From Caenorhabditis remanei (lineage: Eukaryota > Nematoda > Chromadorea > Rhabditida > Rhabditidae): a stretch of DNA of 64,000 nt. Of this stretch, positions 8,086 to 47,961 are shown in pieces. The stretch lies in NCBI RefSeq assembly GCF_010183535.1, contig NC_071329.1, positions 2,604,001 to 2,668,000 of the forward strand, written 5' to 3'. Position numbers and translations under genes: made by a program. The notes beneath the pieces are model-generated. The model did not search any database and was not told the DNA's origin. It saw only the letters and a program-made list of their open reading frames with translations. Each line of letters starts with the position of its first letter. Position 1 is the first letter of the stretch.

Positions 8086-9327
8086 ATGGCGACTGGAGCG
8101 ATTGAGTACAAAAGCGGTACTCTTCAAGTCAGTAACTACACCAATCTTTTGGAGACAAAAACGAATAGTGGCATTACATGGTAGGTTAAATTTTTTGTTA
8201 GGCAAAAACAATCGGAATTAAATTGTATTCTACAATCATCTTATAGTATCTGGAGCGGAAAATTCATGCGCGTCAACTCATATCAAATCGATTTCAAATG
8301 GAAATTCGATTGGAATGAACTCAAAAGTCAAGGAGTCGATGAAATCACTGGACACATTACAGTTTCGTCTAGAGACAATTACTTCCGCCGAACGAAAATT
8401 GATGTAAAAATTACGGAAGATAATCAAGAAATCACAAAAGAAGTCTGGGGCATTTATTATTCTTATACTGTTTACTACGAGTATACTCTCATTCCCCATT
8501 ACGCTCCAGGTTTTGAGAAGCCAGATTACGACAAGATGTTTGCACCATCCGATCAGAATGATACTATTCTGGTTGTCGACAAAAAGAAGCTTCATGTCAA
8601 CAAATCTGTGAGTTTATATGCGGGAGTTGTTATTGACTACACCTTTCATTCAATCGGTAGTTAAATATATTTATATTTATTGCTGTAATTCAATAGAAAT
8701 TGTGTTAATTTCAGTTTCTCTCGTACCACTCCGAGTACTTCCGCAAACTCTTCTCATCGAACGACAAACAGGGCGATGCCAAGGTAGCGTTAATCGGTTT
8801 TCGCTTCATCAGAAGCACGGCAAACCAAAGTTACAAAAATTGTGATTTGTGCGCAGCGGTTCTCAAAAATAAAACTATCTTCTTTGCGTTTAAACACACT
8901 TCACTCTTTTCAGCCGCCAAAGCGCCAGCGTAAGCAAATCTCTGACAACAAAGAAGGACAAATCCAAGAGTTTCCGATCAAAGATGTCTCATTCAAAGAT
9001 TTCGCTCTTCTCCTCAGCACTTTCTACCCAAATCCAGTGTTCCCAACTGACGAAACTGTCGAGAAACTTCTCAAGTTGGCTCGCCGCTTTGTGGTTTCTT
9101 CAGTTATTAACATCATCGAGTATCATCTTCTAAACAATTCGAAAATCAATAATGAAAAGATGTTGTGGATGGCTGATGAGTATGTGATGCCAAAACTTCT
9201 CGAAAAGTGTATTCGTGGACTGAATACCGTAGAGAAAGCGAAGAAATTGGATCAATCTCCGGAATATAAGAAGTTGTCGGATAGTGCCAAAGCGAAAGCT
9301 CTCGACCGCCTAATCAAACTGTTTTAA
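8086..9327 (+). CDS. BTB-4: BTB/POZ-domain protein with a transposon-born intron
   Basis: Exons 8086-8180, 8247-8607, 8715-8783 and 8914-9327 give 312 aa. The usual BTB exon is split: after S-S-N-D-K comes Q-G-D-A-K, a 130-bp intron, then P-P-K-R-Q-R-K-Q-I-S before the normal K-E-G-Q. Residues about 171-185 and the intron come from a 176-bp inserted element (8769-8944). The K-R-Q-R-K run resembles a monopartite nuclear localisation signal; function not shown. The insertion falls in the loop after the first BTB helix, so the fold may tolerate it. Exon 1 and intron 1 are nearly identical to those of BTB-25. Confidence 0.87.
8769..8944 (+). mobile_element. Introner-like hAT-type MITE in BTB-4
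   Basis: 176 bp starting CAGGGCGATGCC and ending GCAAATCTCTG, flanked by the 8-bp near-duplication ACGACAAA (8761-8768) and ACAACAAA (8945-8952). It carries the donor AAG|GTAGCG and acceptor TTTTCAG|CC that define intron 3, so splicing removes most of it and leaves about 15 codons. Confidence 0.82.
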
Positions 9328-9536
9328 TTCTCTAATTTTTGTTGAAAAAGTTCTGTTTTTTCTTGTTACGATTTTGCTTTCATGTAAAGCTCAATCGTTG
9401 TTATTTTGCTGAAATAAATGTTATTTTTTATTTAACTTTTATTCCCCATCATTTTTCTCAAAAAATGAGTAGAATTACCTCAAATGTTACTTCAAAATGT
9501 GAGCAACTTTAAAAAATAATTACAAAATATTGAAGT

Positions 9537-9605
9537 GAGTACGGTACACAAGTCCGCAAACACTCTGCGTACTTTCTCGTCTAGTAATATCAAAAACACG
9601 TGGAT
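9537..9605 (+). promoter_or_regulatory. 47-nt dyad element upstream of BTB-5, right arm lost
   Basis: The core begins at 9541. The left half and centre are intact (inner arm GTACACA, one mismatch), but the end reads CTAGTAATATC, so CCGTA of the outer right arm is missing. It lies about 180 bp before the ATG. The rest of 9328-9764 is the 3' UTR of BTB-4 and AT-rich DNA. Confidence 0.7.
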
Positions 9606-9764
9606 TCTTTGAAATATTGCTCACTTTGCAATTCATAGCAGAAAAAGCAATTATTTTCACTTTCCCATCCGTGTTGTTTTCAAACTTTTTCGCAACAATT
9701 TCTTCAATAAAATCTTTAATTTCTAACCATTTCAATGACAAAAATTCCAGGAAAATTAACGAAA

Positions 9765-10776
9765 ATGTTGGGTCAACCAATCGAGTACAAAAGTGGCTAT
9801 CATCGAGTGAGTGGCTATTTTGATGAATTGGTTTTGGAATCGAAATCAAATAAGGACATTAAATGGTGTGTTGAGCTTTTTTTGAAATAATGATGTCCAA
9901 TTGTACGGAAACAAAATCAAATCATTTTTCAGTATCTGGATCGGAAGTTTCTTTAAGTATTCCCCCAATCAAATATTTTTCACATGGAAATTCGATTGGG
10001 ATGAACTCAAAAGTGAAGGAGTCTATGAGATCACTGGACACATTACTGTCCATTCAAGAAACAATTGGTTCCGTGCAACAAAAATTGATGTGAAACTCAC
10101 TGAAAATAACCAAGAAATCACAAAAGAATTAAGATGCAGTAAGAGTATCAGTTCTGTCTACTATCAATATTCCCTCATTCCTCATTATGCTCCGGTTCCT
10201 GTGAAACCGTCATACGACGAGATGTTTGCGCCATCCGATCAAAATGACACAATTCTGGTTGTCGAAGGAAAAATGCTTCATGTAAACAAAACAGTAAGTC
10301 TATTTCCTCATAAAATATCGATTAATTATTGAAATTTTCAGTTTCTCTCCTACCACTCCGAATATTTCCGCGCACTCTTTTCATCGAATTTCAAAGAAGG
10401 ACAAATGGATGAAATTCCGATCGGAGACGTCTCTTACGAAGATTTCGCTCTTCTTCTCAGCATTTTCTATCCGAATCCATCGTACCCTAATGATGAAACC
10501 GTCGAAAAACTACTAGAAATGGGCCGTCGTTTTCTGGTTTCTTCTGCCTTGAGTAGCGCCGAGCATCATCTACTCAACATGTCCAAGATCAACGATGAGA
10601 AGATGTTGTATTTGGCTGATGAATATGGAATGCCGACAGTTTTGGAGAAGTGTATTCGTAAAATAAATACATTAGAAAAGGCGAGGGAATTGAAGCGATC
10701 TGAGAAATATGACCGATTATCGGACAAGACCAAGTTGAAAGTTTACGAGTGTATCGTGGATTCTAATTCATTTTAA
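9765..10776 (+). CDS. BTB-5: BTB/POZ-domain protein
   Basis: Exons 9765-9865, 9933-10293 and 10342-10776 give 298 aa. Exon 1 has two extra codons (G-Y-F-D-E-L-V-L-E in place of the usual T-N-V-L-E), a feature shared in part with BTB-9 and -10. Intron 1 uses GTGTGT and intron 2 is only 48 bp. The start peptide M-L-G-Q-P-I-E-Y defines a subgroup (M-L-G-x-P-I-E-Y) with BTB-8, -9, -10 and -17. The ATG is 15 nt after TTCCAG. The frame is intact. Confidence 0.88.
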
Positions 10777-11011
10777 CAAATCTTACCGGTTTTTTTCTTT
10801 GATTGTTAAAAATTTTGCGAAACTTTTGTTGAGAAATAAATTTCTTGTTCTGTTATTCTTGTTCAACACATTCAGGGTGATAAAATTCTTAATATTTTCT
10901 TATTTTCGTAATACTTTTTTCAGTAAAAAATCAAAAATAAAATAATATTTTCAAGTTTTTTTTGCGAAAATTTCGAACTTTTAACTAATGGACACAAATA
11001 ATTTTCGCCAC

Positions 11012-11086
11012 GTGTACGGTACGCAAGTCCGCAAACACTCTGCGTACTTTCTCATCTACCGTAGTAATATCGAAAACACGTGGATA
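11012..11086 (+). promoter_or_regulatory. 47-nt dyad element upstream of BTB-6
   Basis: Core 11016-11062 with perfect inner (GTACGCA/TGCGTAC) and outer arms. It is pushed 764 bp from the ATG by the 553-bp element at 11112-11664; removing that insert restores about 205 bp. Confidence 0.75.
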
Positions 11087-11111
11087 TTTTAAAATATTGC
11101 TCATTTTATTT

Positions 11112-11664
11112 GGGGGTATTTGAGTTTAGAACTCGGAAGAATAGAACTGCGACAAAATAAAACTGTGAAAATATAGAACAGGAAAAAATAGAACTGTTAC
11201 AAAGTGGAACAGTGAAAGTTAGAACTGCTACAAAATAGAACTCAACAAAATAGAACTGAACACAATGGAACTGCTACAAAATAGAACTGTTACAAAATAG
11301 AACTCTAGTTCGAACGGAGCGCGTTTGCATTCGTGACTTTTTAGAAGAATTAAAACGACGTTTTTTTTCAATTTTAACAATTAGTCGATGAAGAAAATGA
11401 ATTTATTTGAGAAAAGTCAAAAATAAATTGAATTTTTGCAAAAAAATGCAAACGCGCTCCCTTCGAACTAGAGTTCTATTTTGTAACAGTTCTATTTTGT
11501 AGCAGTTCCATTGTGTTCAGTTCTATTTTGTTGAGTTCTGTTTTGAAGCAGTTCCATTTTTTCGTAGTTCCACTTTGTTCAGTTCTATTTTAGTCAGTTC
11601 TATATTTTCACAGTTTTATTTTGTCGCAGTTCTATTCTTCCGAGTTCTAAACTCAAATACCCCC
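11112..11664. mobile_element. Foldback element of TAGAACTG repeats with 8-bp target duplication
   Basis: Ends GGGGGTATTTGAG and CTCAAATACCCCC, flanked by TTTTATTT on both sides (11104-11111 and 11665-11672). Each arm is a degenerate tandem array of AAAATAGAACTGCTAC-like units. A second family member lies at 20432-20878. The 8-bp duplication fits hAT-type insertion. Confidence 0.85.
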
Positions 11665-11826
11665 TTTTATTTTAAAATTAAACTTCAGCAAACATGTTTG
11701 CTGAAAAACTATATTTCATTTTTCAATCGGCGTTTACCCGTTTCCAAACTTTTCACGACAACTTATTAATGAATTCATTCAATATCAATCGTCTTAATAA
11801 CAAAAATTGCAGGAAAATTAACGAAA

Positions 11827-13009
11827 ATGCCGGGTGACGTAATCGAGTACGAAAGTGGCGTTCATTTCGTCAGTCGACACACCTATGCCGTGGAAAGGGA
11901 ATATCATAAAGGAATCGAATGGTGAGTTGAGCTTTTATTTACTGGGTCTATTCACCTCCGAAAAAAAACACTTTTTTTCCCTCGATTCATTTACCGGAAA
12001 AAACTGTTATTTTTTCCGTTTTTCGCCGTTTTTTTTCGGTACATGAATCGAGGAAAACAACTTTTTTTCCCGGACGTGAATAGCCCCATAAAATAATGAT
12101 GCCCATTTTTTTTCATTGAAACGAAACATTTTGAGTGGCTTCTCCGGGCAAGTCTATGGCAATTCTCCCAATGAGATCGATTTCACATGGAGTTTCGATT
12201 GGAGTGAACTCAAAAGTCAAGGAGTCGACAAGCTCAATGGACATATTACTCTCTTTTCAGTAAACAATAAGTTCCCTCCAATGAAAGTTGTTGCGAACAT
12301 GACTGAAAATCTGGGATCATCCCGAGTAAGATTCGAATGCGATTATGTTACCGATACTGTCTACTATAAATATACTCTCACTCCTCATTACACCCCCATT
12401 TCGGAGAAACCGGCATCCGCTCTCCAAATTCCTGAGAAGCCAGATTACGACAAGATGTTTGCGCCATCAGACCAAAACGATACCATTCTTGATGTTGAAG
12501 GAAAGAAGCTTCATGTTAGTAAAGCGGTGAGTGATTTTTTTCATAAAATATCGATTAATTATTGAAATTTTCAGTTTCTCTCGTACCACTCCGAATACTT
12601 CCGCGCTCTCTTCTCATCGAATTTCAAAGAAGGACAAATGGATGAAATTCCAATCGGAGAAGTTTCATTCGAAGATTTCGCTCTTCTCCTCAGTACTTTC
12701 TATCCGAATCCAGTGTTCGTAACCGATGCAACTGTCGAGAAAATTCTAGAATTGGCTCGTCGTTTTCTAGTTTCCTCTGCCGTAAAGAGCGCCGAAAACC
12801 ATCTGATGAACAATTCAAAAATCGACAATGAGAAGATGTTGTGTTTAGCTGAGGAGTACGGAATGCCGACACTTTTGGAGAAGTGTATTCGTGGATTGGA
12901 TACATTGGAGAAGGCGAAAAAATTGAGACGATCTGAGAAATATGACCAATTATCGGATAAGACCAAGTTGAAAGTGTTCGAGCGGCTCGTGAATCCCATT
13001 TCATTCTAA
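11827..13009 (+). CDS. BTB-6: BTB/POZ-domain protein with a weak splice acceptor
   Basis: Exons 11827-11921, 12136-12526 and 12575-13009 give 306 aa. Exon 2 must begin after ATTTTGAG (12135), a GAG acceptor where paralogues have TTTTCAG, and the family motif C-[VI]-W-S-G is changed to C-G-F-S-G; no other nearby AG keeps the frame. The linker before the BTB fold holds an extra E-K-P-A-S-A-L-Q-I-P, a partial duplication of E-K-P-x-Y. The BTB exon is normal. Either splicing tolerates the weak site or the gene is starting to decay. Intron 1 carries a foldback element (11944-12087). Confidence 0.78.
11944..12087. repeat. Foldback element in intron 1 of BTB-6
   Basis: Ends GGGTCTATTCACCTCCG and CGGACGTGAATAGCCCC, with inverted internal segments such as CCCTCGATTCATTTACCGG. 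A second copy lies at 15282-15398. Confidence 0.75.
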
Positions 13010-13271
13010 CAAAAACTGACCGTTATATTTCTCGTCACTTTTAATCGTTAAAAGTTGTACAAAAGTTTTGTTGAAAATAAATGTCTTGTTTTGTTATTCC
13101 TGTTCAACATGATTCATGGTTATGAAATCCTTAAATTTTTCTTGCTTTCGTAATACTTGCAACAGATCAGCTCGACCGGACCGAATTTGCAATAAAACAT
13201 AATACATTTTATACTATTTTCAAGATTTTTTTTTGCGAAAAAATCGAACAAAAGGAAAACAAATTTGCTAC

Positions 13272-13345
13272 GAGTACGGTACGCAAGTCCGCAAACACTC
13301 TGCGTACTTTTTCACCTACCGTAGTTGCATGACAAAATGCGTGGA
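13272..13345 (+). promoter_or_regulatory. 47-nt dyad element upstream of BTB-7
   Basis: Core 13276-13322, perfect inner and outer arms. A 277-bp foldback starts 26 bp downstream and separates it from the ATG (405 bp; about 128 bp without the insert). Confidence 0.75.
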
Positions 13346-13347
13346 GA

Positions 13348-13624
13348 GACCGTACGAATCGGGAAGAAACGAAATTGGGAAGAAACGAATCGGGAAGAAC
13401 AGTTTTCCGCAAGTTTTCTTGACTTTGGCTGAAGTAATAGCTGCGCACAATGCTCTAAATCGATTTTTTAGTTTCGTAGCTTTATTTTTGACACAAATTT
13501 TAGCGCATAAGCCAGAAAAATCTTTTCTTAATTTTGGATTACGGTAAACTCCGCAATTTGACGTTGATGTTTGCAGAAATTTAGCCTGTTCTTCCCGATT
13601 CGTTTCTTCCCGATTCGTACGGTC
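13348..13624. mobile_element. Foldback element with AATCGGGAAGAAACG ends, copy 1
   Basis: Starts GACCGTACGAATCGGGAAG and ends with the complement TTCCCGATTCGTACGGTC. The interior is shared, in inverted orientation, with 24328-24609 and, more diverged, 38303-38551. No coding content. Confidence 0.82.
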
Positions 13625-13727
13625 AAAAAGAGATTAACCGTTTTCAAATCTTACGCGACAATTTATTTAATCAATTATTCAATTTTTAACCGTTTTTTTA
13701 ACAAAAATTGCAGGAAATTCATCGAAA

Positions 13728-15033
13728 ATGGCGAATGACGTATTCGTGTACAGTAGTGACTATCATTCGGTGAACGGCGACACCAATGTTTTGGAGACAA
13801 AATCTCATCATAAAATCAAATGGTGAGTTAACCTTTACTTTAAAATAATGATTTTAAATCGTTTTGTGCGGAAAAATTATTGAAACGAAACATTTTTCAG
13901 TATCTGGACCGGAACTATTTATTACTTCCTCAAAGAATACAATTTCACCTGGAAATTCAATTGGAATAAACTCAGAAATCAAGGAGTCGACAAGCTCACT
14001 GGACACATTTATGTCAGCAATTCGTACACTGTACAGAAAATCGATGTGGAGTTGACTGAAAACAATCAAGTAATCACAAAAGAATTCGGTAGCAGTCATA
14101 GTGATGGTGATGTCTACTACGATTATTGTCTCACTCCTCATTACACCTCCATTTCTGAAAAACCGTCAGACGATGAGATGTTTGCTCCATCTGACCAAAA
14201 CGATGCGATTCTGATTGTCGAAGGAAAGAAGCTTCATGTCAACAAAACAGTGAGTTCATTTTCTCCAAAAATATCGATTAATTTTCCAATTTTTTCAGTT
14301 TCTGTCGTATCACTCCGAATACTTTCGCGCTCTCTTCTCATCGAATTTCAAAGAAGGACAAATGGATGAAATTCCGATCGGAGACGTCTCATTCAAAGAT
14401 TTCGCTCTGCTCCTCAGCATTTTCCACCCAAATCCAGTGTTCCCAAATGACAGAACTGTCGAGAAACTTCTAGAAATGGGCCGTCGTTTTCTGGTACCAT
14501 CTGCCTTGAGTAGCGCCGAGCATCATCTACTGAACATGTCCAAGATCAACGATGAAAAGATATCATTTTCTTGTAAAATATCGATTAATGTTTCTGTTTT
14601 TCAGTTCCTCTCCTACCACTCCGAATACTTCCGCGCACTCTTCTCATCGAATTTCAAAGAAGGACAAATGGATGAAATTCCAATCGGAGAAGTTTCATTC
14701 GAAGATTTCGCTCTTCTCCTCAGAACTTTCTACCCGGATCCAGTGTTCGTGACCGATGCAACTGTCGAGAAACTTCTAGAAATGGCCCGTCGTTTTCTGG
14801 TGTCTTCAGTCATAAAAGTCGCCGAACATCATCTTCTAAACATGTCGAAAATCGACAATCAAAAGATGTTCTATTTAGCTGATGAATATGGAATGCCGAC
14901 TCTTTTGGAGAAGTATATTCGTGGATTGGATACATTGGCAAAGGCGAAACAAATGAAGAAATCGAAAAAGTATGAGCAATTATCGGATAAGACCAAGTTG
15001 AAAGTGTTCGATCGTTTCATGGATTTCATTTGA
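13728..15033 (+). CDS. BTB-7: chimeric BTB protein with one and a half BTB domains
   Basis: Exons 13728-13822, 13901-14249 and 14299-15033 give 392 aa. Exon 3 starts as a normal BTB exon but after S-K-I-N-D-E-K (near 14559) it runs into a relic of another member's intron 2 (14563-14604, matching the BTB-8 intron) and then a complete second BTB exon (14605-15033). The 42-nt relic has no stop and keeps frame, so the whole 735-nt exon is open. Alternatively exon 2 could splice directly to the acceptor preserved at 14604, giving a standard 290-aa protein. The second BTB is most like that of BTB-8. Unequal crossing-over is the likely origin. Confidence 0.82.
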
Positions 15034-15281
15034 TTTTAACAAAAAATCACTTTTTTTTTCTTCACACGTTGTTATTTTAATAGTAAAAATTGTACAAAAC
15101 TGTAGTTGAGAAATAAATATCTTGTTCTGTTATTCTTGTTCGTGGTGATGAAATCCTTAATATTTTCTGGCTTTGGTAAAACTTGCTACGGATGATAAGG
15201 TCGACCAGACCGAGTTTTGAGTAAATAATCAAACATTTTAATACTATTTCAAGTTTTTTGCGAAAAAATTGAACTTTTATA

Positions 15282-21119: not shown

Positions 21120-22662
21120 ATGTGGGGTGCCGCAATCGAGTATAAAAGTGGTACTTATCACATCAATGGAAACACCAATGTTTTGGAGACAAAATCTCAT
21201 GAGGGAATTGAATGGTGAGATGTTCGGCTTGGGGTCGCGAAGTTTGTCTCGACGCGACTACCGTAGTATAAAACTTTTAATGACTAAAGTACGGTCAAGA
21301 GCCGCCGTAATTCGAAATTCCGAAACGAGACCCAGTCCGCGTCCCCGGGCCGAACTTTGAGCAAGCGGTTAGCCACCGGCGGATGGGTAATATTGAAATA
21401 TATCTTTTTCCAGTATCTGGAGCGGAAAAATTTATAGCACTAGTGTTAGTGTTTTCTCCTCTCACAAAATCAACTTCACGTGGAAATTCGATTGGAACAA
21501 ACTCAGAAATCAAGGAGTCGACAAGGTTACTGGATACATCACTGTCAGATCAGCATTTAATGGAACGAAAATTGATGTGAAACTGACTGAAAATAACCAA
21601 GAACTCAGAACAGATATGGTAATCACTAATTTTGCCGAAAATGTCTACTATCAATATTCTCTCACTCCACATTACACCTCCATTTCTGAGAAACCATCAT
21701 ACGAAGAGATGTTTGCACCGTCCGATCAGAATGATACTATTCTGGTTGTCGAAGGAAAGAAGCTTCATGTTAGTAAAGCGGTGAGTTCATTTCCAGAGAT
21801 GAGCGGAAGAGTTGGCGGAAGAAATCCTTGGCTGAGTAGCTTTTCTTTGGGACGGTAACAAAACGTGTTCAATAGATAAAATTTGCAGCATAAATTTTTC
21901 AATCTAATGGGAAAAACAAGACATTAAAATATTATAAACTAAACGAGTTACAGTCATCAAGGCTTGTATTCCGCCTTCCGCCAAATGGTCTCAGGGCGGA
22001 AGGCGGAATAAAGACTTAAATTGACTGTAACTCGTTTAGTTTATAATATTTTAATTTCCTGGTTTTTCCAATCGATAGACAAATTTATGCTGCAAATTTC
22101 ATCTATTGAACACTTTTTGCTACCGTCCCAAAGAAAAGCTACTCCGCCTATTTAAGGATTTCTTCCGCCAACTCTTCCGCTCATCTCTGCTCATTTCCTA
22201 TTAGGAAATCTATTAATTTTTGCTATTTTTCAGTTCCTCTCCTACCATTCCGATTATTTCCGCGCACTCTTCTCATCAAACTACAAAGAAGGACAAATGG
22301 ATGAAATTCCGATTGGAGAAGTCTCTTACGAAGATTTCGCTCTTCTTCTCAGCACTTTCTACCCAAAACCGGCGTTTCCAAATGATAGTACTGTCGAGAA
22401 ACTTCTGGAAATGGGTCGTCGTTTTCTGGTATCGTCTGCCATAAGTAGCGCTGAACATCATTTGATAACCAATTCAACAATCGAAAACGAGAAGATGTTG
22501 TGGTTGGCTGACGAGTATGGAATGCCGACGCTTCTCGAGAAGTGCATTCGTCAAATAAATACAGTAGAAAACGCGAAGAAGTTGAAGAAATCGGAAAAGT
22601 ATGAACACTTATCTGATAAGACCAAGGTGAAAGTGTACGAGCGTCTGATGGATTCGATGTGA
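21120..22662 (+). CDS. BTB-11: BTB/POZ-domain protein
   Basis: Exons 21120-21214, 21414-21780 and 22234-22662 give 296 aa. The start peptide is M-W-G-A-A-I-E-Y. Exon 2 has an insertion T-S-V-S-V-F-S-S after C-I-W-S-G-K-I-Y-S, lengthening the first loop. Intron 1 (199 bp) holds a GC-rich diverged inverted segment (21225-21357) and intron 2 (453 bp) holds a long foldback (21794-22188). Exon 3 reads S-E for the usual residues but Y-H-S-D-Y-F in the helix. All frames are open. Confidence 0.87.
21794..22188. repeat. Long hairpin element in intron 2 of BTB-11
   Basis: Inverted arms of nearly 190 bp start AGAGATGAGCGGAAGAGTTG and end with the near-complement CTCTTCCGCTCATCTCT. The apex is TTCCGCCTTCCGCC facing GGGCGGAAGGCGGAA near 21968-22008. 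It could fold as a long hairpin in the pre-mRNA. Confidence 0.82.
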
Positions 22663-30569: not shown

Positions 30570-30583
30570 GAAAATATCAAAGC

Positions 30584-33961: not shown

Positions 33962-34984
33962 ATGGCGAGTGGAGCGATCGAGTATAAAAGTGATCGGAAA
34001 TACGCCAATACCGCCACCAATGTTTTGGAGACAAGAACGAATAATGGAATTACATGGTTAGTTAAATATTTGAGGGAAAAATCAATTGGGATTGAATTAT
34101 ATTCGACATTTATTTTATAGTGTCTGGAGCGGAAAAGTTAACTACTCTCATCATATCGATTTCAAATGGATATTCGATTGGGACGAGCTCAAAAGTCAAG
34201 GAGTCGATGAGATCAGTGGACACATAATTGTTACGTCAAATAACAATTTGTTCACTGCAATGAAAATTGATGTAAAAATTACGGAAGATAATCAAGAAAT
34301 CACAAAAATAGTAGGAAGCGGTTATAGTTCTTATTATGTTTACTACGAGTATTCACTTATTCCCCACTACAGTCCACTTCTTGAGAAACCCTCATACGAC
34401 GAGATGTTTGCACCCTCCGAACAGAATGACACTATTCTGGTAGTTGAAGGAAAGAAGCTTCATGTTAGCAAAGCGGTGAGTGAACCCGCAGAAGTTGAAA
34501 GTTTCTGTCAATTCTCTAGAATAAAATCTAGAATCAGTTTCATTCATTTCAGTTTCTCTCCTACCATTCCGAATATTTCCGCGCACTCTTCTCATCGAAT
34601 TTCAAAGAAGGACAAATGGATGAAATTCCAATCGAAGACGTCTCTTACGAAGATTTCGCTTTTTTTCTCAGCACTTTTTATCCAACTCAAGCGTTTCCAA
34701 CTGACAAAACTGTCGAGAAACTTCTGGAGATGGCTCGTCGTTTTCTCGTTTCTTGTGCCACGAGAAGCGCCGAGTATCATCTGATGAAAAACTCGAAAAT
34801 CAATAATGAGAAGATGTTGTGGTTGGCGGACGAGTATGGTTTGCCGACACTTTTGGAGAAGTGTATTCGAGGACTGAATACTGAGGAGAAGATAAAAAAG
34901 TTGAAGCAATCTGAAGAATATAAAAAGTTGTCGGATAGTGCCAAAGTGAAAGTTCTCGATCGCATTTTATCTCAATTTTTCTAA
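33962..34984 (+). CDS. BTB-19: BTB/POZ-domain protein
   Basis: Exons 33962-34056, 34121-34475 and 34553-34984 give 293 aa. It is the near-twin of BTB-1 over exons 2 and 3 and in intron 2 (GTGAGTGAACCCGCAGA). In exon 3 it has F-F-L-S-T-F-Y-P-T-Q-A-F-P-T-D and A-T-R-S-A-E-Y-H. A cysteine replaces S in V-S-C-A-T-R. The tail ends I-L-S-Q-F-F. BTB-20 starts 188 bp after its stop with no 47-nt element, repeating the BTB-1/BTB-2 arrangement. Confidence 0.88.
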
Positions 34985-35172: not shown

Positions 35173-36442
35173 ATGTCAATAAAGTACACAAGTGAGACAT
35201 ATGAAGTCCAGGTATGTGCGTGGGTGGCGTTGAGCGCCTCGCATTTCTTCAAAGGGTGATGAAAAAACTTGAAAATGTGAAAAGAGAGTGTGTGTAAAAA
35301 TGAGTGACGAGATCTGTCCATTTTCACGTTGATTGGCTGATTGAAAGGGGCGGAGTCTCAGGCTGAACACTGATTGGCCGTTTGAACCCCCTCGCCAGAT
35401 ATCGTCTCTCGATTTTACACACTCTCTCATTTCGCTCACGTTGAATTCTTTCAGCTCCCAAAGCGCTTCCAGAGGCACATCCCTGATGAAGTCAGTCGCG
35501 ACATCAATGTTTTGGAGACAAAAACGAATAGCGGAATTACATGGTAAGTTAAACATTTGAGGAAAAAACAATTGGAAATAATTTATATTCTAATTTTATT
35601 TTATAGTATCTGGAAAGGAGCAGCATTCGGTGACCGAATGAGTTTGACGTGGAAATTCGATTGGAGCGAACTCAAAAGTCAAGGAGTCTATGAGCTTACT
35701 GGACACATTAATGCCTTTCCAGTTTTCACTTCGTCCACCACTTCGGTGAAAATTGATGTACAACTGACTGAAAATAACCAAGAAATCACAAAAGAATTCA
35801 ACGGTTGTCTCCCTTTTGTCCACTACGAATATTCTCTCACTCCACATTACACCTCCATTTCTGAGAAACCACCATACGAAGAGATGTTTTTGCCATCTGA
35901 TCAAAATGATACTATTCTGCTTGTCGAAGGAAAGAAGCTTCATGTCAGCAAAGCGGTGAGTTCATTTTCTCGGCAAATATCGATTAATTTTTTTTAAACT
36001 TTTTCAGTTTCTCTCTTACCACTCCGAATATTTCCGCGCACTTTTCTCTTCGAATTTCAAAGAAGGACAAATGGATGAAATTCCTATCGGAGACGTCTCT
36101 TACGAAGATTTTGCTCTACTTCTCAGCACTTTTTACCCAAATCCAGTGTTCCCGAATGATAGTACTGTCGAGAAAATTCTGGAAATGGCTCGTCGTTTTC
36201 TTGTGTCTGCTGCCATAAGTAGTGCCGAACATCATCTCATGTACATTTCCAGAATCTCTAGAGAAAGAATGTTGTGGTTGGCAGATGAGTACGGAATGCC
36301 GAAACTTCTCGAGAAGTGTATTCACGGATTGGATACAACGTACAAGGTAGAGAATCTCAAGCAATCGGAAGAATATGAGAAATTGTCGGATGAGACCAAG
36401 TTGAGAGTTACCGAACAAATTTCTAAATTGTCCCACATTTGA
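35173..36442 (+). CDS. BTB-20: BTB/POZ-domain protein with a transposon-born intron in exon 1
   Basis: Exons 35173-35211, 35455-35543, 35607-35955 and 36008-36442 give 303 aa. Exon 1, undivided in all other members, is split here by a 277-bp element (35209-35485) flanked by ATGAAGTC on both sides. Splicing at CAG|GTATGT and TTTCAG|CTC leaves Q-L-P-K-R-F-Q-R-H-I-P inserted between E-V and S-R-D, with the target duplication re-encoding D-E-V. The leftover peptide parallels P-P-K-R-Q-R-K-Q-I-P of BTB-4. Exons 3 and 4 resemble BTB-2. Probable downstream gene of an operon with BTB-19. Confidence 0.85.
35209..35485 (+). mobile_element. Introner-like hAT-type MITE in exon 1 of BTB-20
   Basis: Starts CAGGTATGTGC and ends GCACATCCCTG, imperfect terminal inverted repeats, with perfect 8-bp target duplications ATGAAGTC (35201-35208 and 35486-35493). 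The left terminus itself is the 5' splice site. The right 37 bp (TTTCAGC, CCAAAGCG, ACATCCCTG) match the right end of the element in BTB-4, -22, -24, -25 and -26, so it is the same family at a different site. Confidence 0.85.
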
Positions 36443-38775: not shown

Positions 38776-40537
38776 ATGTTGGGCGACGCAATCGAGTACA
38801 AAAGTGGTGATTACGATCTTTGTAATGACGAAGAAATTTTCGATACGAAATCTCAAAATGGAATTAAATGGCAAGTTATTTTCATATTTCAAAAATTAAA
38901 TTTCCTTCGTTTTTTTCGATATTTAACAGCGTCAAAGTATGATCGAATGAGACCTTTTTCAGTGATTGGAGCGGAACGGTGTATTCCTTCTCCTATAAAA
39001 TCGATTTCAAATGGAAATTCGATTGGAGTGAACTCAAAAATCAAGAAGTCGATGAGATCACCGGACACGTTACTCTCGATTCAAGAGAAGATGTTTTCTC
39101 TGCAACGAGAATTTATGTGAAAATTACGGAAGATAACCAAGAAATCACAAAAGAAGTTCGAAGCGAACGATACTATGAAGGCGATACTGTCCGCTACGAG
39201 TATACTCTCATTCCCCATTACGCTCCAGTTCTTGAGATGCCAGATTATGACAAGATGTTCGAACCCTCCGATCAGAATGATACGATTCTGGTTGTTGAAG
39301 GAAAGAAGCTTCACGTCAACAAAACGGTGAGTAAATTCGTGGAATTCGAGATCTACTTTCTCAACAAAACTCGATTAAATAGGTTTTTTTCAGTTCCTCT
39401 CCTACCACTCCGAATATTTCCGCGCACTCTTTTCATCGAATTTCAAAGAAGGACAAATGGATGAAATTCCGATCGGAGAAGTTTCATTTGAAGATTTTGC
39501 TCTTCTTCTAAGCGCATTCTACCCGAATCCAGTCTTCCCATGTGACAGTATTGTCGAAAAACTTTTGGAAATGGCCAGTCGTTTCATGGTTTCGTCAGTT
39601 GTCAACATCATCGAGTATCATCTTCTAAACAATTCGAAAATCAATAGTGAGAAGATGTTGTGGATGGCTGAAGAATATGTGATGCCAAAACTTCTCGAAA
39701 AGTGTAGTCGTGGACTGAATACCGAGGAGAAAGCTCCAGTTCTTGAGAAGCCAGATTACGACAAGATGTTTGCACCATCCGATCAGAATGATACTATTCT
39801 GGTTGTCGACAAAAAGAAGATTCATGTTAACAAATCTGTGAGTTTATATGCGCAAGTTGTTATTGACGTTTGTTTTTTTTCAGTTCCTCTCTCATCACTC
39901 CGAATACTTCCGCAAACTCTTCTCATCGAACAACAAACAGGGCGATGCCAAGGTAGAGCTAAGCGGTTTTTGTTTCATCAGGATCACGGCAAACCGAAGT
40001 TTCCAAATGTTTCTATTCATGAGTAGCGGTGCTCGAAAAGAAAACTTTTCCCGCTCCCCAGATTTTGTCTGTCAGTTGAAAAAAACTATATTATTTACGT
40101 TCAAACACACTTATTTTTTTCAGCGCCCAAAGCGTCAGCGTAAGCAAATCCCTGACAACAAAGAAGGACAAAGGGATGAAATTCCGATCGGAGACGTCTC
40201 TTATGAAGATTTCGCTCTTCTCCTCAGCACTTTTTACCCGAATCCAGTGTTTCCAACTGACAGAAATGTCAAGAAACTGTTGGAAATGGGTCGTCGTTTT
40301 ATGGTATCTTCAGTTATTAACATCATCGAGTACCATCTGATGAACAATTCGAAAATCAAAAATGAGAAGATGTTGTGGATGGCTGACCAGTATGTGATGC
40401 CGAAACTTCTCGAAAAGTGTATTTATGGACTGGATACCGACAAGAAAGCAAAGAAGTTGAAGCGATCTGAGGAATATAAAAAATTGTCGGACAGTGCCAA
40501 AGCGAAAGTTCTCGACCGTCTTATCCAATTGTTTTAA
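38776..40537 (+). CDS. BTB-22: five-exon fusion with two BTB domains and a GC-AG intron
   Basis: Exons 38776-38870, 38963-39326, 39394-39837, 39884-39952 and 40124-40537 give 461 aa, all in frame. Exon 3 starts as a normal BTB exon but near 39733 (after L-N-T-E-E-K-A) it switches to the end of another member's exon 2 (P-V-L-E-K-P-D-Y-D-K-M-F through K-K-I-H-V-N-K-S). A second, transposon-split BTB follows in exons 4 and 5. Exon 3 is 444 nt, so skipping it would give a standard 313-aa protein. Intron 1 uses the donor ATG|GCAAGT, a good GC-type site. Origin: unequal recombination between two neighbours. Confidence 0.82.
39938..40154 (+). mobile_element. Introner-like hAT-type MITE in BTB-22
   Basis: 217 bp, CAGGGCGATGCC to CAAATCCCTG, flanked by perfect ACAACAAA duplications (39930-39937 and 40155-40162). 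It provides the donor AAG|GTAGAG and acceptor TTTTTTCAG|CG of intron 4. Same exon position as in BTB-4, so it was inherited through gene duplication. Confidence 0.84.
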
Positions 40538-40737
40538 TTCTCTAATTTTTTGTTTTTTTCTTGTTATGATTTTACTTTCATGCAAAGTCTTATTGTTGTT
40601 ATGTTGTTGAAATAAATTTTGTTTTTTATTTAACAGTTTAATCCCCATGATTTTTCCCAAAAAATGAGTAGAAATAACCTCAAATGTTACTTCAAAAATG
40701 TGTGCAACTTTTGAGAATAATGACAAAATATCGAAGT

Positions 40738-40812
40738 GAGTACGGTAGGCAAGTCCGCAAACACTATGCATACTTTCGCGCCTACCGCAGTTCCATGAAA
40801 AATACGTGGATT
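40738..40812 (+). promoter_or_regulatory. 47-nt dyad element upstream of BTB-23, re-paired variant
   Basis: Core 40742-40788. The centre is ACTATGCATAC, so the usual inner stem is weakened, but CGGTAGGC on the left can pair with GCCTACCG on the right over 8 bp. It is 340 bp before the ATG. Confidence 0.72.
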
Positions 40813-40960
40813 TTTCACATATTGCTCAATTTATTTGCATTAGAACTTCCAGTGAAAAGCAGTAGCTTTTCAGCTTTTTATCCTTTTTTCGTTTAAAACT
40901 GTTCAATGCACTTAATTTCATCACAAACAAAAAAAAACGACCGATGTTTTGTCGCTTTCA

Positions 40961-41028
40961 CAGATTTCTCAGTTTTCGCAATTCATATTGCTCATTCTTT
41001 TTTCGATTGCGAAAACTGAAATATTTGC
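40961..41028. repeat. Small palindrome in the BTB-23 upstream region
   Basis: CAGATTTCTCAGTTTTCGCA pairs with TGCGAAAACTGA plus AATATTTG. Same family as 6487-6553. Confidence 0.7.
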
Positions 41029-41128
41029 TAATGTTACAAAAAAATTCAGCGTTTTTCTAGTTCGTGACTATTGTGATAGTTCAAAAAAAACCATTTTAAC
41101 TATGAAATTTGCAGAAAAATTAACGAAA

Positions 41129-42138: not shown

Positions 42139-42343
42139 CTCTCAATTATTTCGTTTTTTCTTGTTATGACTTTGCTTCTGTGCAAAGCGTTGTTAAGTTG
42201 TTGAAATTGTTGTTGAATTAAATTTTGTTTTTTTATTTAACAGTTTACTTCCCATCATTTTTCTTAAAAAATGAGTAGATTTACCTCAAATGTTACTTCA
42301 AAAATGAGTGCAAATTCTGAAAATAGTGACAAAATATTGAAGT

Positions 42344-42418
42344 GAGTACGGTAGGCAAGTCCGCAAACACTCTGCGTACTTTCTCGTCCACCGTAGTTGC
42401 ATGACAAAATACGTGGAT
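42344..42418 (+). promoter_or_regulatory. 47-nt dyad element upstream of BTB-24
   Basis: Core 42348-42394, inner left arm GTAGGCA, right outer arm CCACCGT (one change), 344 bp before the ATG. Confidence 0.73.
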
Positions 42419-42573
42419 TTTGGAATTATTTCTTACTTTATTTTCAATAGAAATTTCAGCAAAAAAAACAGTTTCTTTTCAGCTTTTTCATTCATTTTGC
42501 CTTTAATAACTTTTTACTACGCTTAATCTTATTACAAACGTGGAGAACTACCCAATTTTTTTTGTCGCTTTCA

Positions 42574-42640
42574 CAGATTTCTCAGTTTTCGCAATTCATC
42601 TTGCTCATTCTTTTTTCGATTGCGAAAACTGAAAAATCTG
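42574..42640. repeat. Small palindrome in the BTB-24 upstream region
   Basis: CAGATTTCTCAGTTTTCGCA and TGCGAAAACTGAAAAATCTG form a near-perfect hairpin of 20-nt arms. It is the best preserved of the four copies. Confidence 0.75.
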
Positions 42641-42738
42641 CTGATATTACAAAGAAATTTAAAGTTTTTACAGTTTGTAGCTGTTTTGAGCGCATCAAAT
42701 CCGCATTAATCGAGAAATTTGCAGAAAAATTATCGAAA

Positions 42739-44044
42739 ATGATGGGCGACGCGATCGAGTACGAAAGTGGTACTTATGAAGTCGATGATAGCACAGGTGC
42801 TTTGGAGACAAACTCTCAAAATGGAATTAAATGGTGAGTTATGATCATATTTCAAAAACTTGAATCCCTTCATTTTCTTCTGAATCAAACCCAGGGAATG
42901 ATTGAATTCGATATTTTCAGTGACTGGAGCGGAACGATCAATTTCAACTCCTCTCAAATCGATTTCACGTGGAAATTCGATTGGAGTGAACTCCAAAGTG
43001 AAGCAGTCTATGAGATCACTGGACACATTACTGTCACTTCAACTAACAATTACTTCAGTGCAACGAAGATCGATGTGAGACTGACAGAAAATAATCAGGT
43101 ATACACGAAGCAAGTTCCAATTGAAAGTGAATATGAATACGATGAGGTCAACTATCACTATTCTCTCATTCCCCATTACGCTCCGATTCCTGAGAAGCCA
43201 GATTACGACAAGATGTTTTCGCCGTCCGATCAGAATGACACGATTCTTGTTGTCGGAGGAAAGAAGCTTCATGTCAATAAGTCTGTGAGTTTATATGCGC
43301 AAGTTGTTATGATTTCAACTTTTAATCAATCGGTAGTTGAATATATTTATATTTATTGCTGTAAATTCAATAGAAATTTTGTTAATTTCAGTTTCTCTCC
43401 TACCATTCCGAATACTTCCGCAAACTCTTCTCATCGAACGACAAACAGGGCGATGCCAAGGTAGCGTTAATCGGTTTTTGTTTCATCAGAAGCACGGCAA
43501 ACCAAAGTTACAATAGTTTCCATTTTTGCGCAGCGGTGCTCAAAAAGAAAACTATTACCGCTCCCCAGATTTTGTCTCTCACTTTTAAAAACTATCTTCT
43601 TTGCGTTTAAACACACTTTAATCATTTCAGCCGCCAAAGCGTCAGCGTAAGCAAATTCCTGACGACAAAGAAGGACAAATCGAAGAGATTCCGATCAAAG
43701 ATGTCTCATTCAAAGATTTCGCTCTTCTCCTCAGCACTTTTTACCCAAATCCAGTGTTCCCAACTGACAAAACTGTCGAGAAACTTCTAGAAATGGCCAG
43801 TCGTTTCATGGTATCTTCAGTTATCAACATCATCGAGTATCATCTGTTGAACAATTCAAGAATCACCGATGAGAAAATGTTGTGGATGGCTGATGAGTAT
43901 GGAATGCCAAAACTCCTCGAAAAGTGTATTCGTGGACTGAATACAGCGGAGAAAGCGAAGAAATTGGATCAATCTCCGGAATATAAGAAGTTGTCGGACA
44001 GCGCAAAAGCCAAAGCTCTCGACCGTCTCATCAAATTGTTCTAA
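42739..44044 (+). CDS. BTB-24: BTB/POZ-domain protein with a transposon-born intron
   Basis: Exons 42739-42833, 42921-43284, 43392-43460 and 43631-44044 give 313 aa. Two ATGs are adjacent at the start (M-M-G-D-A-I-E-Y); I use the first, which restores the family spacing to the acceptor. The BTB exon is split by the 216-bp element at 43446-43661, leaving Q-G-D-A-K and P-P-K-R-Q-R-K-Q-I-P-D-D. The strand after the insertion reads I-E-E-I-P-I-K-D-V-S-F-K-D-F. The beta-rich domain starts C-D-W-S-G-T-I. No lesion. Confidence 0.87.
43446..43661 (+). mobile_element. Introner-like hAT-type MITE in BTB-24
   Basis: 216 bp, CAGGGCGATGCC to GCAAATTCCTG, with perfect 8-bp duplications ACGACAAA (43438-43445 and 43662-43669). 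Carries the donor AAG|GTAGCG and acceptor ATTTCAG|CCG. Confidence 0.85.
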
Positions 44045-44243
44045 TTCTCAATTATTTCGTTTTTTCTTGTTATGACTTTGCTTCAAAGCGTTGTTAAGTT
44101 GTTGAAATTGTTGTTGAATTAAATTTTGTTTTTATTATATTATCTCCATCAGTTTTTGAAAAAATGAGTAGTAATTACCTCAAACGATACTTCAAAAATA
44201 TGGGCAACTTTTGAAAATAATGACAAAATTTCGTAGCGAGTAC

Positions 44244-44700
44244 ACGGTGATTTTCTCGGAACCACTTGGTTTGATTTCTAGGCCATCACATTGGCGGCCC
44301 CGAGCAAACCCGCTCCAATGCGCCGTTGAAATTTCTATACCCTCAACTTTGGCTTTAATTTTCTAAAAATTTGATTATAACAACCAGCAGGTTATTTATA
44401 ATGCCTCTTAAAAAAATTATGGAGAATTTTTAACAATAAGTTTCATACCATATGGCCGTCAGTTTCATAGTTTAATCCGCCAGTTACTTTTCTTGACATT
44501 CAATACAGTGTAAAAAATTATTCCATTTTCGAACGCGCTCTACCTGCACGTGCGAGAGAAGAGAGACGCAGAGCCAAACGAGTGCCGCAGTTGCAAAAAC
44601 CGCGTGCCAAGCTTGCATCAAGACTCCGCCCATTTCATTTTCCACTGCGGCCGAACTTTTTTTGGCGCTACCTACTAGCTGGTTCCGAGAAAATCACCGT
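44244..44700 (+). mobile_element. MITE with ACGGTGATTTT ends, copy 2
   Basis: 457 bp, inverted relative to 30114-30569. Left end ACGGTGATTTTCTCGG, right end CCGAGAAAATCACCGT. The 6-bp duplication GAGTAC flanks it (44238-44243 and 44701-44706). That target is exactly the first bases of the 47-nt element of BTB-25. Confidence 0.87.
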
Positions 44701-44772
44701 GAGTACGATACACAAGTCCGCAAACACTCTGCGTACTTTCTCGTCCACCGTAGTTGCATGACAAAATACGTG
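44701..44772 (+). promoter_or_regulatory. 47-nt dyad element upstream of BTB-25
   Basis: Core 44705-44751, directly abutting the MITE. Left arm ACGATACACA and right outer arm CACCGT are changed, the centre is intact. It is 182 bp before the ATG. Confidence 0.73.
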
Positions 44773-44933
44773 GATTTTGGAATTATTTCTTACTTTATTT
44801 TCAATAGAAATTCCAGCGGAAAACTGTGTTTTAATCAGATTTCACTTTGTTCATCTTTCAGTCTAGCACATTCTCGAAATTTCTTTGAGTTCTATCAATT
44901 TTAATCGATAAACTTTCAGAAAAATTATCGAAA

Positions 44934-46170
44934 ATGGCGAGTGGAGCGATCGAGTACAAAAGCGGTACTCTTCAAGTCAGTAACTACACCAATCTTTTGG
45001 AGACAAAAACGAATAGTGGCATTACATGGTAGGTTAAATTTTTTGTTAGGCAAAAACAATCGGAATTAAATTGTATTCTACAATCATCTTATAGTATCTG
45101 GAGCGGAAAATTCATGCGCGTCAACTCATATCAAATCGATTTCAAATGGAAATTCGATTGGAATGAACTCAAAAAACAAGGAGTCGATGAGCTCACTGGA
45201 CACATTACTGTCTCATTAACTAACGATCGGTTCACTGCAAAGACCATTAATGTGAAAATTACGGAGGATAATCAAGAAATCACAAAAGAAGTCTGGGGCA
45301 TTTATTATTCTTATAATGTTTACTACGAGTATTCTCTCACTCCCCACTACGCTCTGATTTCTGAGAAGCCAGGTTACGACAAGATGTTCGCGCCATCCGA
45401 TCAGAATGATACTATTCTGGTTGTCGACAAAAAGAAGCTTCATGTCAACAAGTCTGTGAGTTTATATGCGGGAGTTGTTATTGACTACACCTTTCATTCA
45501 ATCGGTAGTTAAATATATTTATATTTATTGCTGTAATTCAATAGAAATTGTGTTAATTTCAGTTTCTCTCGTACCACTCCGAATACTTCCGCAAACTCTT
45601 CTCTTCGGATTACAAACAGGGCGATGCCAAGGTAGCGTTAATCGGTTTTCGCTTCATCAGAAGCACGGCAAACCAAAGTTACAAAAATTGTGATTTGTGC
45701 GCAGCGGTTCTCAAAAAGAATCTTCTTTGCGTTTAAACACACTTTAATTATTTCAGCCGCCAAAGCGTCAGCGTAAGCAAGTTCCTGATAACAAAGAAGT
45801 ACAAACCCAAGAGTTTCCGATCAAAGATGTCTCATTCAAAGATTTCGCTCTTCTCCTCAGCACTTTCTACCCAAATCCAGTGTTCCCAACTGACGCAACT
45901 GTCGAGAAACTTCTCGAATTGGCTCGCCGCTTTGTGATTTCTTCAGTTATTAACATCATCGAGTATCATCTACTGAACAATTCGAGAATCAATAGTGAGA
46001 AGACGTTGTGGATGGCTGATGAGTATGTGATGCCAAAACTTCTCGAAAAGTGTATTCGTGGACTGAATACCGTGGAGAAAGCGAAGAAATTGGATCAATC
46101 TCCGGAATATGAGAAGTTGTCGGATAGTGCCAAAGCGAAAGCTCTCGACCGTCTCATCAAATTGTTCTAA
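44934..46170 (+). CDS. BTB-25: BTB/POZ-domain protein with a transposon-born intron
   Basis: Exons 44934-45028, 45095-45455, 45563-45631 and 45757-46170 give 312 aa. Exon 1, intron 1, the first part of exon 2 and all of intron 2 are almost identical to BTB-4, while the middle of exon 2 (L-T-N-D-R-F-T-A-K-T-I-N-V) is different, a patchwork expected from gene conversion. After the insertion the strand reads E-V-Q-T-Q-E-F-P-I-K-D-V. Element leftovers: Q-G-D-A-K and P-P-K-R-Q-R-K-Q-V-P. No lesion. Confidence 0.87.
45617..45787 (+). mobile_element. Introner-like hAT-type MITE in BTB-25
   Basis: 171 bp, CAGGGCGATGCC to GCAAGTTCCTG. The flanking 8-mers ATTACAAA and ATAACAAA have diverged by one base. 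The intron inside is 125 bp (45632-45756), the shortest of the set. Confidence 0.8.
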
Positions 46171-46494
46171 TTTTCTGATTCTTGTTGAAAAAGTTTTGTT
46201 TTTTCTTGTTATGATTTTGCTTTTATGCCAAGCCTAATTGTTGTTATGTTGTTGAATTAAATGTTGTTTTTTATTTAACAGTTTATTCCCCATCATTTTT
46301 CTCAAAAAACGAGTAGAATTACCTCAAATTTTACTTCAAAAAAGGTGAGCCCCCGTTTCACCCGAGTAGCTCTGTCATTGGTCTCGTAACGAATTTTCTT
46401 CGTTGAAACAGCGTTCCTCCCCTGTTTCATCAAAACCTCGCTTTCACCGCTGTTTCTCCGTTTCAAAACGCTGAGGATGACGAAATTTCGTAGC

Positions 46495-46555
46495 CAGTAC
46501 GGTATGCAAGTCCGCAAACACACTGCGTACCTTCTCGTCCACCGTAGTTGCATGA
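46495..46555 (+). promoter_or_regulatory. 47-nt dyad element upstream of BTB-26
   Basis: Core 46499-46545, inner left arm GTATGCA (wobble), loop CACAC, right outer arm CACCGT. It is 180 bp before the ATG. Just upstream (about 46340-46475) an unrelated GC-richer insertion with several GTTTCA words interrupts the usual flank. Confidence 0.72.
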
Positions 46556-46725
46556 AAAATATAGAAGTTTTTCACATAGCTCTCTTCATTTTCAATTGAA
46601 ATTGCAACGGAAAGCTGCGTTTTAATTAGTTTTTCACTTTTTAAATCTTTCGGACTAGCATATTCTCGAAATTTCTTTCAGTTCTATCAATTCTTAACGA
46701 TAAACTTTCAGAAAAATTATCGAAA

Positions 46726-47961
46726 ATGGCAAGTGGAGCGATCAGGTACACAAGTGACTATCGAGTAGTCAGTCGCGACACCAATGTTCTGGATACAGAA
46801 GAGAACTGTAGAATTAAATGGTGAGTCAAAGTTTTTGCTAGGAAAACACAATTGGAATTAAATAATAGTCGATATTTATTTTATAGTGTCTGGAGCGGAA
46901 AAGTTAATAACGATTATCAAATCGATTTCACCTGGAAATTCGATTGGAATGAACTCAAAAATCAAGGAGTCGCCGAGATCACTGGACACATTACTGTTTC
47001 GTCAAATAACAATTCGTTCACTCCAACGAGAATTGATGTAAAAATTACGGAAGATAATCAAGAAATCACAAAAGTAGTCGGAAGCGGTTATACTACTTAT
47101 ACTGTTTACTACGAGTATTCTCTCACTCCCCACTACGCTCTGATTTCTGAGAAGCCAGGTTACGACAAGATGTTTGCACCATCCGATCAGAATGACACGA
47201 TTCTGGTTGTTGGAGGAAAAAAGCTTCATGTCAACAAATCTGTGAGTTTATATGCCCAAGTTGTTATGATTTCACCTTTCAATCAGTCGGTAGTTAAATA
47301 TATTCAAATTTATTGCAGTAAATTCAATATAAATTTTGTTAATTTCAGTTCCTCTCGTACCACTCCGAATACTTCCGCAAACTCTTCTCTTCGGACTACA
47401 AACAGGGCGATGCCAAGGTAGCGTTAAGCGGTTTTCGTTTCATCAGAAGCACGGCAAACCGAAGTTTCAAAAATTTTGATTTGTGCGCAGCGGTGCTCAA
47501 AAAGAAAACTATCTTCTTTGCGTTTAAACACACCTCACTTATTTCAGCCGCCAAAGCGCCAGCGTAAGCAAATTCCTGATAACAAAGACGGACAAATTGA
47601 ACAGATTCCGATCAAAGATATCTCATTCAAAGATTTCGCTCTTCTTCTCAGCACTTTCTATCCGAATCCAGTGTTCCCAACCGACGCAACTGTTGAGAAA
47701 CTTCTCAAATTGGCTCGCCGCTTTGTGGTTTCTTCAGTTATTAACATTATCGAGTATCATCTTCTAAACAACTCCAAAATCAATAGTGAAAAGATGTTGT
47801 GGATGGCTGACGAGTATTTGATGCCAAAACTTCTCGAAAAGTGTATTCGTGGACTGAACACAGTGGAGAAAGCGAAGAAATTGGATCAATCTCCGGAATA
47901 CAAGAAGCTGTCGGATAGTGCCAAAGCGAAAGCACTCGACCGTCTCATCAAATTGTTCTAA
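46726..47961 (+). CDS. BTB-26: BTB/POZ-domain protein with a transposon-born intron
   Basis: Exons 46726-46820, 46887-47241, 47349-47417 and 47548-47961 give 310 aa. The start peptide M-A-S-G-A-I-R-Y-T-S and the D-T-E-E-N motif are shared with BTB-27. The first half of exon 2 resembles BTB-1 (E-I-T-K-V-V-G-S-G-Y), and the end resembles BTB-25 (H-Y-A-L-I-S-E-K-P-G-Y-D-K-M-F). Element leftovers are Q-G-D-A-K and P-P-K-R-Q-R-K-Q-I-P. The strand after the insertion reads I-E-Q-I-P-I-K-D-I. Intact. Confidence 0.87.
47403..47578 (+). mobile_element. Introner-like hAT-type MITE in BTB-26
   Basis: 176 bp, CAGGGCGATGCC to GCAAATTCCTG; flanking 8-mers ACTACAAA and ATAACAAA (diverged duplications). Intron of 130 bp (47418-47547). 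Confidence 0.8.

Follow-up and report, generated by a model that had tools for sequence, protein, structure and literature searches.

A hAT-like element family with predicted splice sites in its ends interrupts BTB and F-box/FTH exons of Caenorhabditis remanei

Elements at one codon of a BTB exon

The 64,000-nucleotide stretch of Caenorhabditis remanei DNA analysed here (the window; assembly GCF_010183535.1, contig NC_071329.1, positions 2,604,001 to 2,668,000, or C2:2604001-2668000) holds an array of BTB genes, several of which carry transposon-like elements in their exons that are predicted to be removed as introns. Five of the 31 BTB exons in the window (that at 14356 is partial) have an element at one and the same codon, as an earlier note on this DNA had claimed for BTB-4, BTB-22, BTB-24, BTB-25 and BTB-26, and 26 lack it. 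Twenty-five of these 26 continue uninterrupted as AAAGAAGGACAA-like sequence, and the other, at 51668, is a few codons shorter there. The elements, an uninterrupted exon and a complete gene model are:

8769..8944, forward strand: BTB-4 element, 176 bp; predicted intron 8784-8913; translated edges 8769-8783 and 8914-8944; duplications 8761-8768 and 8945-8952, ACGACAAA/ACAACAAA, 1 mismatch
39938..40154, forward strand: BTB-22 element, 217 bp; predicted intron 39953-40123; duplications ACAACAAA/ACAACAAA, 0 mismatches
43446..43661, forward strand: BTB-24 element, 216 bp; predicted intron 43461-43630; duplications ACGACAAA/ACGACAAA, 0 mismatches
45617..45787, forward strand: BTB-25 element, 171 bp; predicted intron 45632-45756; duplications ATTACAAA/ATAACAAA, 1 mismatch
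47403..47578, forward strand: BTB-26 element, 176 bp; predicted intron 47418-47547; duplications ACTACAAA/ATAACAAA, 2 mismatches
34610..34978, forward strand: example of an uninterrupted paralogous BTB exon, with the empty site TTTCAAAGAAGGACAA directly before
46726..47961, forward strand: BTB-26 gene model with exons 46726-46820, 46887-47241, 47349-47417 and 47548-47961; 310-aa open frame

The string CAGGGCGATGCC occurs in the window exactly five times (8769, 39938, 43446, 45617 and 47403), and still five times when up to two mismatches are allowed; shuffled versions average 0.94 matches, and 0 of 100 shuffles reach five. The duplications are perfect in BTB-22 and BTB-24, which bears out the earlier note, and contain 1, 1 and 2 mismatches in the other three genes. 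Predicted splicing of these BTB-4-type copies retains 15 + 31 + 8 = 54 nt, or 18 codons, and adds the peptide QGDAK(P/R)PKRQRKQ(I/V)(P/S)D(N/D)K in all five genes. Across the five copies there are 0 gaps over the 46 translated-edge positions and 272 gapped pair-cells in the intron. The spliced BTB-26 model matches Pfam BTB at residues 125-248 (E 1.7e-22), a match that spans the 18-aa insert.

Public gene models use the predicted junction in four of the five BTB-4-type genes: the 310-aa BTB-26 model is 100% identical over 100% of its length to GCK72_004103, and GCK72_004102, GCK72_004101 and GCK72_004096 carry the BTB-25, BTB-24 and BTB-4 inserts, respectively. No match to the BTB-22 copy was found among the retrieved public proteins. 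The insert is also present in CRE_06861 and CRE_06860 from a second C. remanei assembly; we take the CRE_ proteins to come from an older assembly of another strain. In total, 6 of 145 retrieved proteins contain the insert, all six from C. remanei and 0 from outside it.

A search of the genome (130.47 Mb) found the BTB-4-type element only at these five places (six matches, one copy being split in two), indicating that it multiplied by gene duplication, as had been proposed. A single insertion into a BTB exon, followed by tandem gene duplication and exchange, would explain the five genes. Five separate insertions at one preferred codon seem very improbable, even though the downstream exon lends them some support: its best tree needs two label changes, which is compatible with one origin, and 0 of 200 bootstrap trees unite the five genes on one branch, with BTB-22 and the far 3′ part of BTB-24 grouping with element-free paralogues. 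Against separate insertions, one clade of the five genes is not rejected (p-AU 0.18), the position, orientation and 15-nt left edge are identical in all five, their introns can be aligned, and for the 54 nt before the site the nearest relative lies among the five themselves in 5/5 cases. The mosaic 3′ ends suggest exchange between BTB paralogues.

The PPKRQRK stretch of the added peptide (encoded in BTB-4 by 8769-8783 and 8914-8944, and likewise in the other four copies) resembles a basic nuclear-import signal. A basic insert of the KRQRK type may alter where BTB proteins of the BTB-4 family act. A search of solved structures with GCK72_004103 returned no match.

A family of hAT-like elements with splice signals in its ends

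A second kind of element lies in BTB-20:

35209..35485, forward strand: BTB-20 element, 277 bp; donor CAG/GTATGT (the slash marks the splice point); predicted intron 35212-35454; translated tail 35455-35485
35173..36442, forward strand: BTB-20 gene model; the spliced reading is open over 303 aa, with QLPKRFQRHIPDEV added

Its duplications (35201-35208 and 35486-35493) are both ATGAAGTC, a perfect match, and the N-terminus is uninterrupted in the paralogue at 1281 and in public CRE_06865. Queried against the genome, the element gave 85 matches from the best 40 of 122 candidates, on several chromosomes. With up to three mismatches, family left ends occur 117 times genome-wide (64 forward, 53 reverse) and right ends 118 times (64 forward, 54 reverse), with 0 matches to controls in either case. 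We read 66 copies with their flanks from 70 places (the window, L016-L044 and L075-L114), L111 containing two copies; L031 and L035 were excluded for having no left end within six mismatches, and L075, L083 and L113 for lacking a right end within 450 bp. The 8-bp duplications are perfect in 57 of these copies, contain one mismatch in 2 and two in 3, and are poor in 4. Most copies are 170-190 or 322-340 bp long, and the median pairwise difference among 49 copies of 170-190 bp is only 3.7%, indicating that the family is young. The terminal inverted repeat (CAGGTATGTGCC / CAGGGATGTGCC) is short and begins CAG(G/A), as in the terminal consensus of the hAT superfamily. By these features, the BTB-20 element is a member of a young hAT-like family of miniature inverted-repeat transposable elements (MITEs).

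The left end of the family reads CAG/GTATGT, a putative donor, and the right end TTTCAG or TTCTCAG, a putative acceptor, followed by a 31-nt tail ending CATCCCTG; GTATGT and TTTCAG are good worm splice signals. In the sample, 60/66 copies start with CAGGTATGT, 64/66 have the acceptor AG (CTTTCAG in 47, TTCTCAG in 15), and GT and AG are both intact in 60/66. Predicted splicing retains 3 + 31 + 8 nt, the last being the duplication, giving 42 nt or 14 codons in frame. This piece is free of stops in 57, 5 and 53 of the 60 intact copies in the three phases, and the known exonic copies all sit in the two open phases. A single T creates the donor and distinguishes the two inverted repeats (CAGGTATG on the left, CAGGGATG on the right). 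Among the ends listed, 97 of 100 on the left but 1 of 100 on the right have it, a contrast that is somewhat biased because the left search pattern itself contained the T, and the asymmetry is common to both size classes. The motifs and tail are constant across the family, inside genes and outside them, which argues that the predicted splice sites and translated edges belong to the element itself, as the earlier note had suggested.

By alignment, the BTB-4-type and BTB-20 elements are related subfamilies and not one homogeneous family, the BTB-4 type being a diverged relative detected only in this array. Their right ends are identical at 26-31 of 37 ungapped positions. Alignment z-scores of the BTB-4 type against the family are 6.6-10.7 over the full length, 4.0-5.5 for the left 30 nt and 7.6-9.8 for the right 45 nt, and 0 of 1000 shuffles score as high. 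The right-end likeness on which the earlier note relied is therefore real, although the bare string CCAAAGCG is not diagnostic, being found as well in regular coding sequence towards the 3′ end of these genes (e.g. at 9287, 40497 and 46130). The BTB-4 donor, AAG/GTAGCG, aligns with CGG/GTGGCG of the family, 12 nt inside the family donor, and so keeps the same frame; the retained length is a multiple of three in both types (42 or 54 nt). Of the earlier proposal that one family had inserted at two unrelated exon sites, the separate sites and the relationship hold, whereas single-family membership gives way to subfamilies whose donors lie 12 nt apart. The concatenated pattern TTTCAGCCCAAAGCG proved a poor probe (25 matches, 8 in the control) and was dropped.

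Two further exonic insertions lie in F-box/FTH genes on C5:

C5:19044568-19044904, sense: FTH-A element, 337 bp, perfect duplication, within an exon of an F-box/FTH gene
C5:19051210-19051379, sense: FTH-B element, 170 bp, duplication CCGCTGCC/CCGTTGCC, in a paralogue 6-7 kb from FTH-A

With the FTH-A element removed, the restored frame has a Pfam FTH match (4.6e-8, residues 44-134) that runs across the empty site. The spliced frame reads ...TIDF RSAQSASEGTSLDF RLL..., and the 14 added residues are absent from 10/10 aligned relatives (of 12 matches). In addition, the FTH-A host gene (L018) encodes an F-box and an HTH_48 domain of the Mos1-transposase type. FTH-B is not one of the 66 sampled copies and came to light through a public protein; its spliced reading is ...DPLP SAQSASIGPSL PLPAVV..., where paralogues have PLPAVV, and CRE_25940, from the other assembly, holds the FTH-B tail AQSASIGPSLPLPAVV.

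There are thus four independent exonic sites (BTB-4 type, BTB-20, FTH-A and FTH-B), with similar introns at non-homologous positions and with uninterrupted relatives. All four are in sense orientation, in frame and open after predicted splicing (+14 or +18 codons), so that the common splicing orientation noted earlier for the BTB-4 type and BTB-20 extends to both FTH genes. A 4/4 sense count has a chance of 1 in 16 and is weak evidence, two of the sites having been chosen because they looked spliced. The earlier note had named as refuting outcomes that such ends would be purely intergenic or confined to the array; instead, distant copies exist, at least two of them in F-box/FTH coding exons.

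Several other observations concern the family at large. Open frames do not exceed 92 aa in a long member of 2520 bp and 112 aa in another of 1407 bp, both with perfect duplications; these members (L115 with L083, and L116) show similar frames on both strands, which suggests long inverted repeats, and no transposase. Contig C6, which we take to be the X chromosome of about 21.5 Mb, has 0 of 70 exact left-end matches (chance about 3e-6) and none of the 100 listed left and 100 listed right ends. Two copies near BTB-like genes, L090 and L091 (C2:16.45 and 16.72 Mb), have flanks and duplication remnants in common and, on that basis, are one insertion duplicated along with its neighbourhood.

Intron formation and its alternatives

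We consider it very likely that these copies represent a hAT-like MITE with built-in splice signals that makes introns in exons, and we infer from the sequences that RNA is spliced at the element sites. In this mechanism, a non-autonomous hAT-like MITE family of C. remanei would carry splice signals in its ends, and a sense insertion into an exon would make everything between donor and acceptor removable as an intron. The mRNA would keep 42 nt (14 codons) from the young form or 54 nt (18 codons) from the BTB-4 type. BTB-20 and the two F-box/FTH genes would be three further independent insertions, and the family was presumably moved by hAT transposase supplied in trans. A bolder version, in which an introner active now or very recently in C. 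remanei had its asymmetric left repeat fixed as a perfect donor, letting copies hide in exons and giving new introns and protein segments in at least four places, is tentative, and we lean against it.

Several findings weigh against intron formation by the element or against its bolder version. Only 2 of the 66 sampled copies (FTH-A and BTB-20) were placed in exons, a lower bound rather than an enrichment test. The BTB-4-type translated edges do not change clearly more slowly than the adjoining coding sequence, with differences per compared cell of 0/150 for the left edge, 0.090 for the right edge, 0.088 for the upstream exon, 0.125 for the intron and 0.124 for the downstream exon. Once spliced, the FTH-A protein matches Pfam FTH only beyond the insert (199-305), and the insertion may damage the FTH domain. 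In CRE_25940, the exon upstream of the FTH-B tail is not the one in the spliced model; as a result of the insertion, the old acceptor and the new donor enclose a 15-nt exon (L117 710-724, C5:19051.2 kb), and CRE_25940 reads as though this exon were skipped. The public models may derive from gene prediction rather than reads, and the BTB-20 or FTH-A peptide is found in 0 of the 145 retrieved public proteins. An autonomous hAT with the same ends, for which the earlier note had advised looking, was not found: the genome has 33 PF05699 matches, and of the 30 loci fetched, none has corresponding ends in the surrounding 1.5 kb or so, two weak 12-mers excepted.

Placement of the 66 copies was judged by joining the flanks without the element and examining spanning open frames and codon usage, with Pfam searches on seven spanning frames. 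The exon enrichment raised as a possibility in the earlier note did not emerge. The copies are not mainly introns made in exons; those other than FTH-A and BTB-20 look intronic, intergenic or unclassified, and L086 (in a pseudouridine synthase gene), L027, L024, L042 and L076 are apparent insertions in introns beside splice sites. In a genome of this kind, roughly a quarter is coding exon; if that proportion applies here, copies in exons are under-represented, which is what generally harmful insertions would produce.

These counts bear on the most serious alternative, to which we give an even chance: a hAT MITE of the ordinary sort, its ends similar to splice sites by chance and none of them selected for splicing, with most exonic insertions lost and the lucky spliced ones surviving in dispensable, fast-duplicating genes. 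Exonic copies are scarce in the sample, one of the two being the BTB-20 starting point; the copies are so young (median 0.037, n=49) that conserved sites prove little; and all four exonic sites are in the large BTB and F-box/FTH families. Fortuitous resemblance sits less easily with the donor T asymmetry, which, its search bias aside, appears in both size classes, and with retained lengths that are multiples of three in both types. Selection for splicing is possible rather than demonstrated. It is unlikely, in our judgement, that the introns exist in annotation alone, in dying pseudogenes whose mRNA keeps the element or whose expression is abolished. The location of the insertions in multi-copy families and the lack of public proteins matching BTB-20 and FTH-A would fit such an artefact; however, the five BTB-4-type genes keep a full frame after duplication and divergence, with the 46 edge positions ungapped, the same insert is predicted in two C. 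remanei assemblies, and the reading frame continues across the junction in BTB-20 (303 aa) and in the FTH genes. That these are ordinary ancestral introns which merely look repetitive has almost nothing to recommend it beyond the similarity by descent expected of introns in paralogues. It is contradicted by the terminal repeats, the 8-bp duplications, the uninterrupted paralogues and more than 100 unlinked family copies in the genome; it is already refuted for the BTB-20 and FTH copies, and among the 145 retrieved proteins the BTB-4-type insert occurs in none from a species other than C. remanei. The best reading of the sequences is an introner-like hAT MITE in a non-aquatic animal.

Comparison with known introners

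In 2016, Huff et al. reportedly identified introners as non-autonomous DNA transposons that create introns. Exonic DNA transposons such as maize Ds, also a hAT, and C. elegans Tc1 are spliced out, often imprecisely, at cryptic sites in mutant alleles. The C. remanei elements resemble these in being exonic DNA transposons removed by (here predicted) splicing, but their splice sites lie at fixed places in the family and their host genes keep open frames.

Closer parallels come from the account of introners given in parts of Gozashti et al. 2022 (PMC9860276), where they are described as non-autonomous DNA transposons that create spliceosomal introns by exon insertion. Those of Aureococcus (Fig. 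2F-G) bring along a donor and an acceptor, duplicate 8 bp of the target and lengthen the coding sequence by 12 bp (8 duplicated and 4 from the element). Like the introner in that figure, the C. remanei family carries both splice sites, makes 8-bp duplications and adds codons; unlike it, the family adds 42 or 54 bp, mostly from the 31-nt translated right tail, has a nematode host, and has most sampled copies outside exons, with four exonic events found. The survey in those parts of PMC9860276 records introners from just two animal groups and, Ascomycetes and one further lineage aside, from no hosts that are not aquatic, whereas C. remanei is a non-aquatic nematode; the main text has no mention of "nematod-" or Caenorhabditis. 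Our search for introners or transposon-born introns in nematodes found no literature report of nematode introners or of this family, subscription journals being mostly outside its coverage. With its nematode host, translated tail and mostly non-exonic copies, an introner-like hAT MITE of this kind is a variant of known introners.

Part of a nematode survey (PMC9169325) reports 168 gained introns, with no source sequences and none in C. remanei, 166 of which left the flanking exons unchanged. The present cases are likewise new introns in Caenorhabditis, but compared with those described there, their source is visible and 42-54 nt are added. Clean-gain screens would have difficulty detecting introns of this type, which lie in multicopy genes and bring 42-54 nt with them.

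On the question of how new introns originate, the present insertions offer a visible source, with ends that are nearly identical, target duplications that are clean, and sites that are empty in relatives. Should RNA bear out the splicing, intron birth could be followed in a genus with strong laboratory genetics, and the view put forward in the parts of PMC9860276 considered here, that introners are chiefly a feature of aquatic lineages, would need qualification. Were the family truly an active introner, one would be at work in a non-aquatic animal, supplying nematodes with introns that clean-gain screens miss.

Two other elements lie in introns of BTB genes in the window:

49140-49239: 100-bp element, CAGAGCTGTGCGG...GCACAGCTCTG, with a perfect 8-bp duplication TTCAGTTT
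21794-22189: 396-bp element with long inverted repeats (CAGAGATGAGCGG...) and duplications TTCATTTC/CTCATTTC

The former is another hAT-like MITE whose ends differ from those of the BTB-20 family, and the latter occupies the equivalent relative place in its BTB intron.

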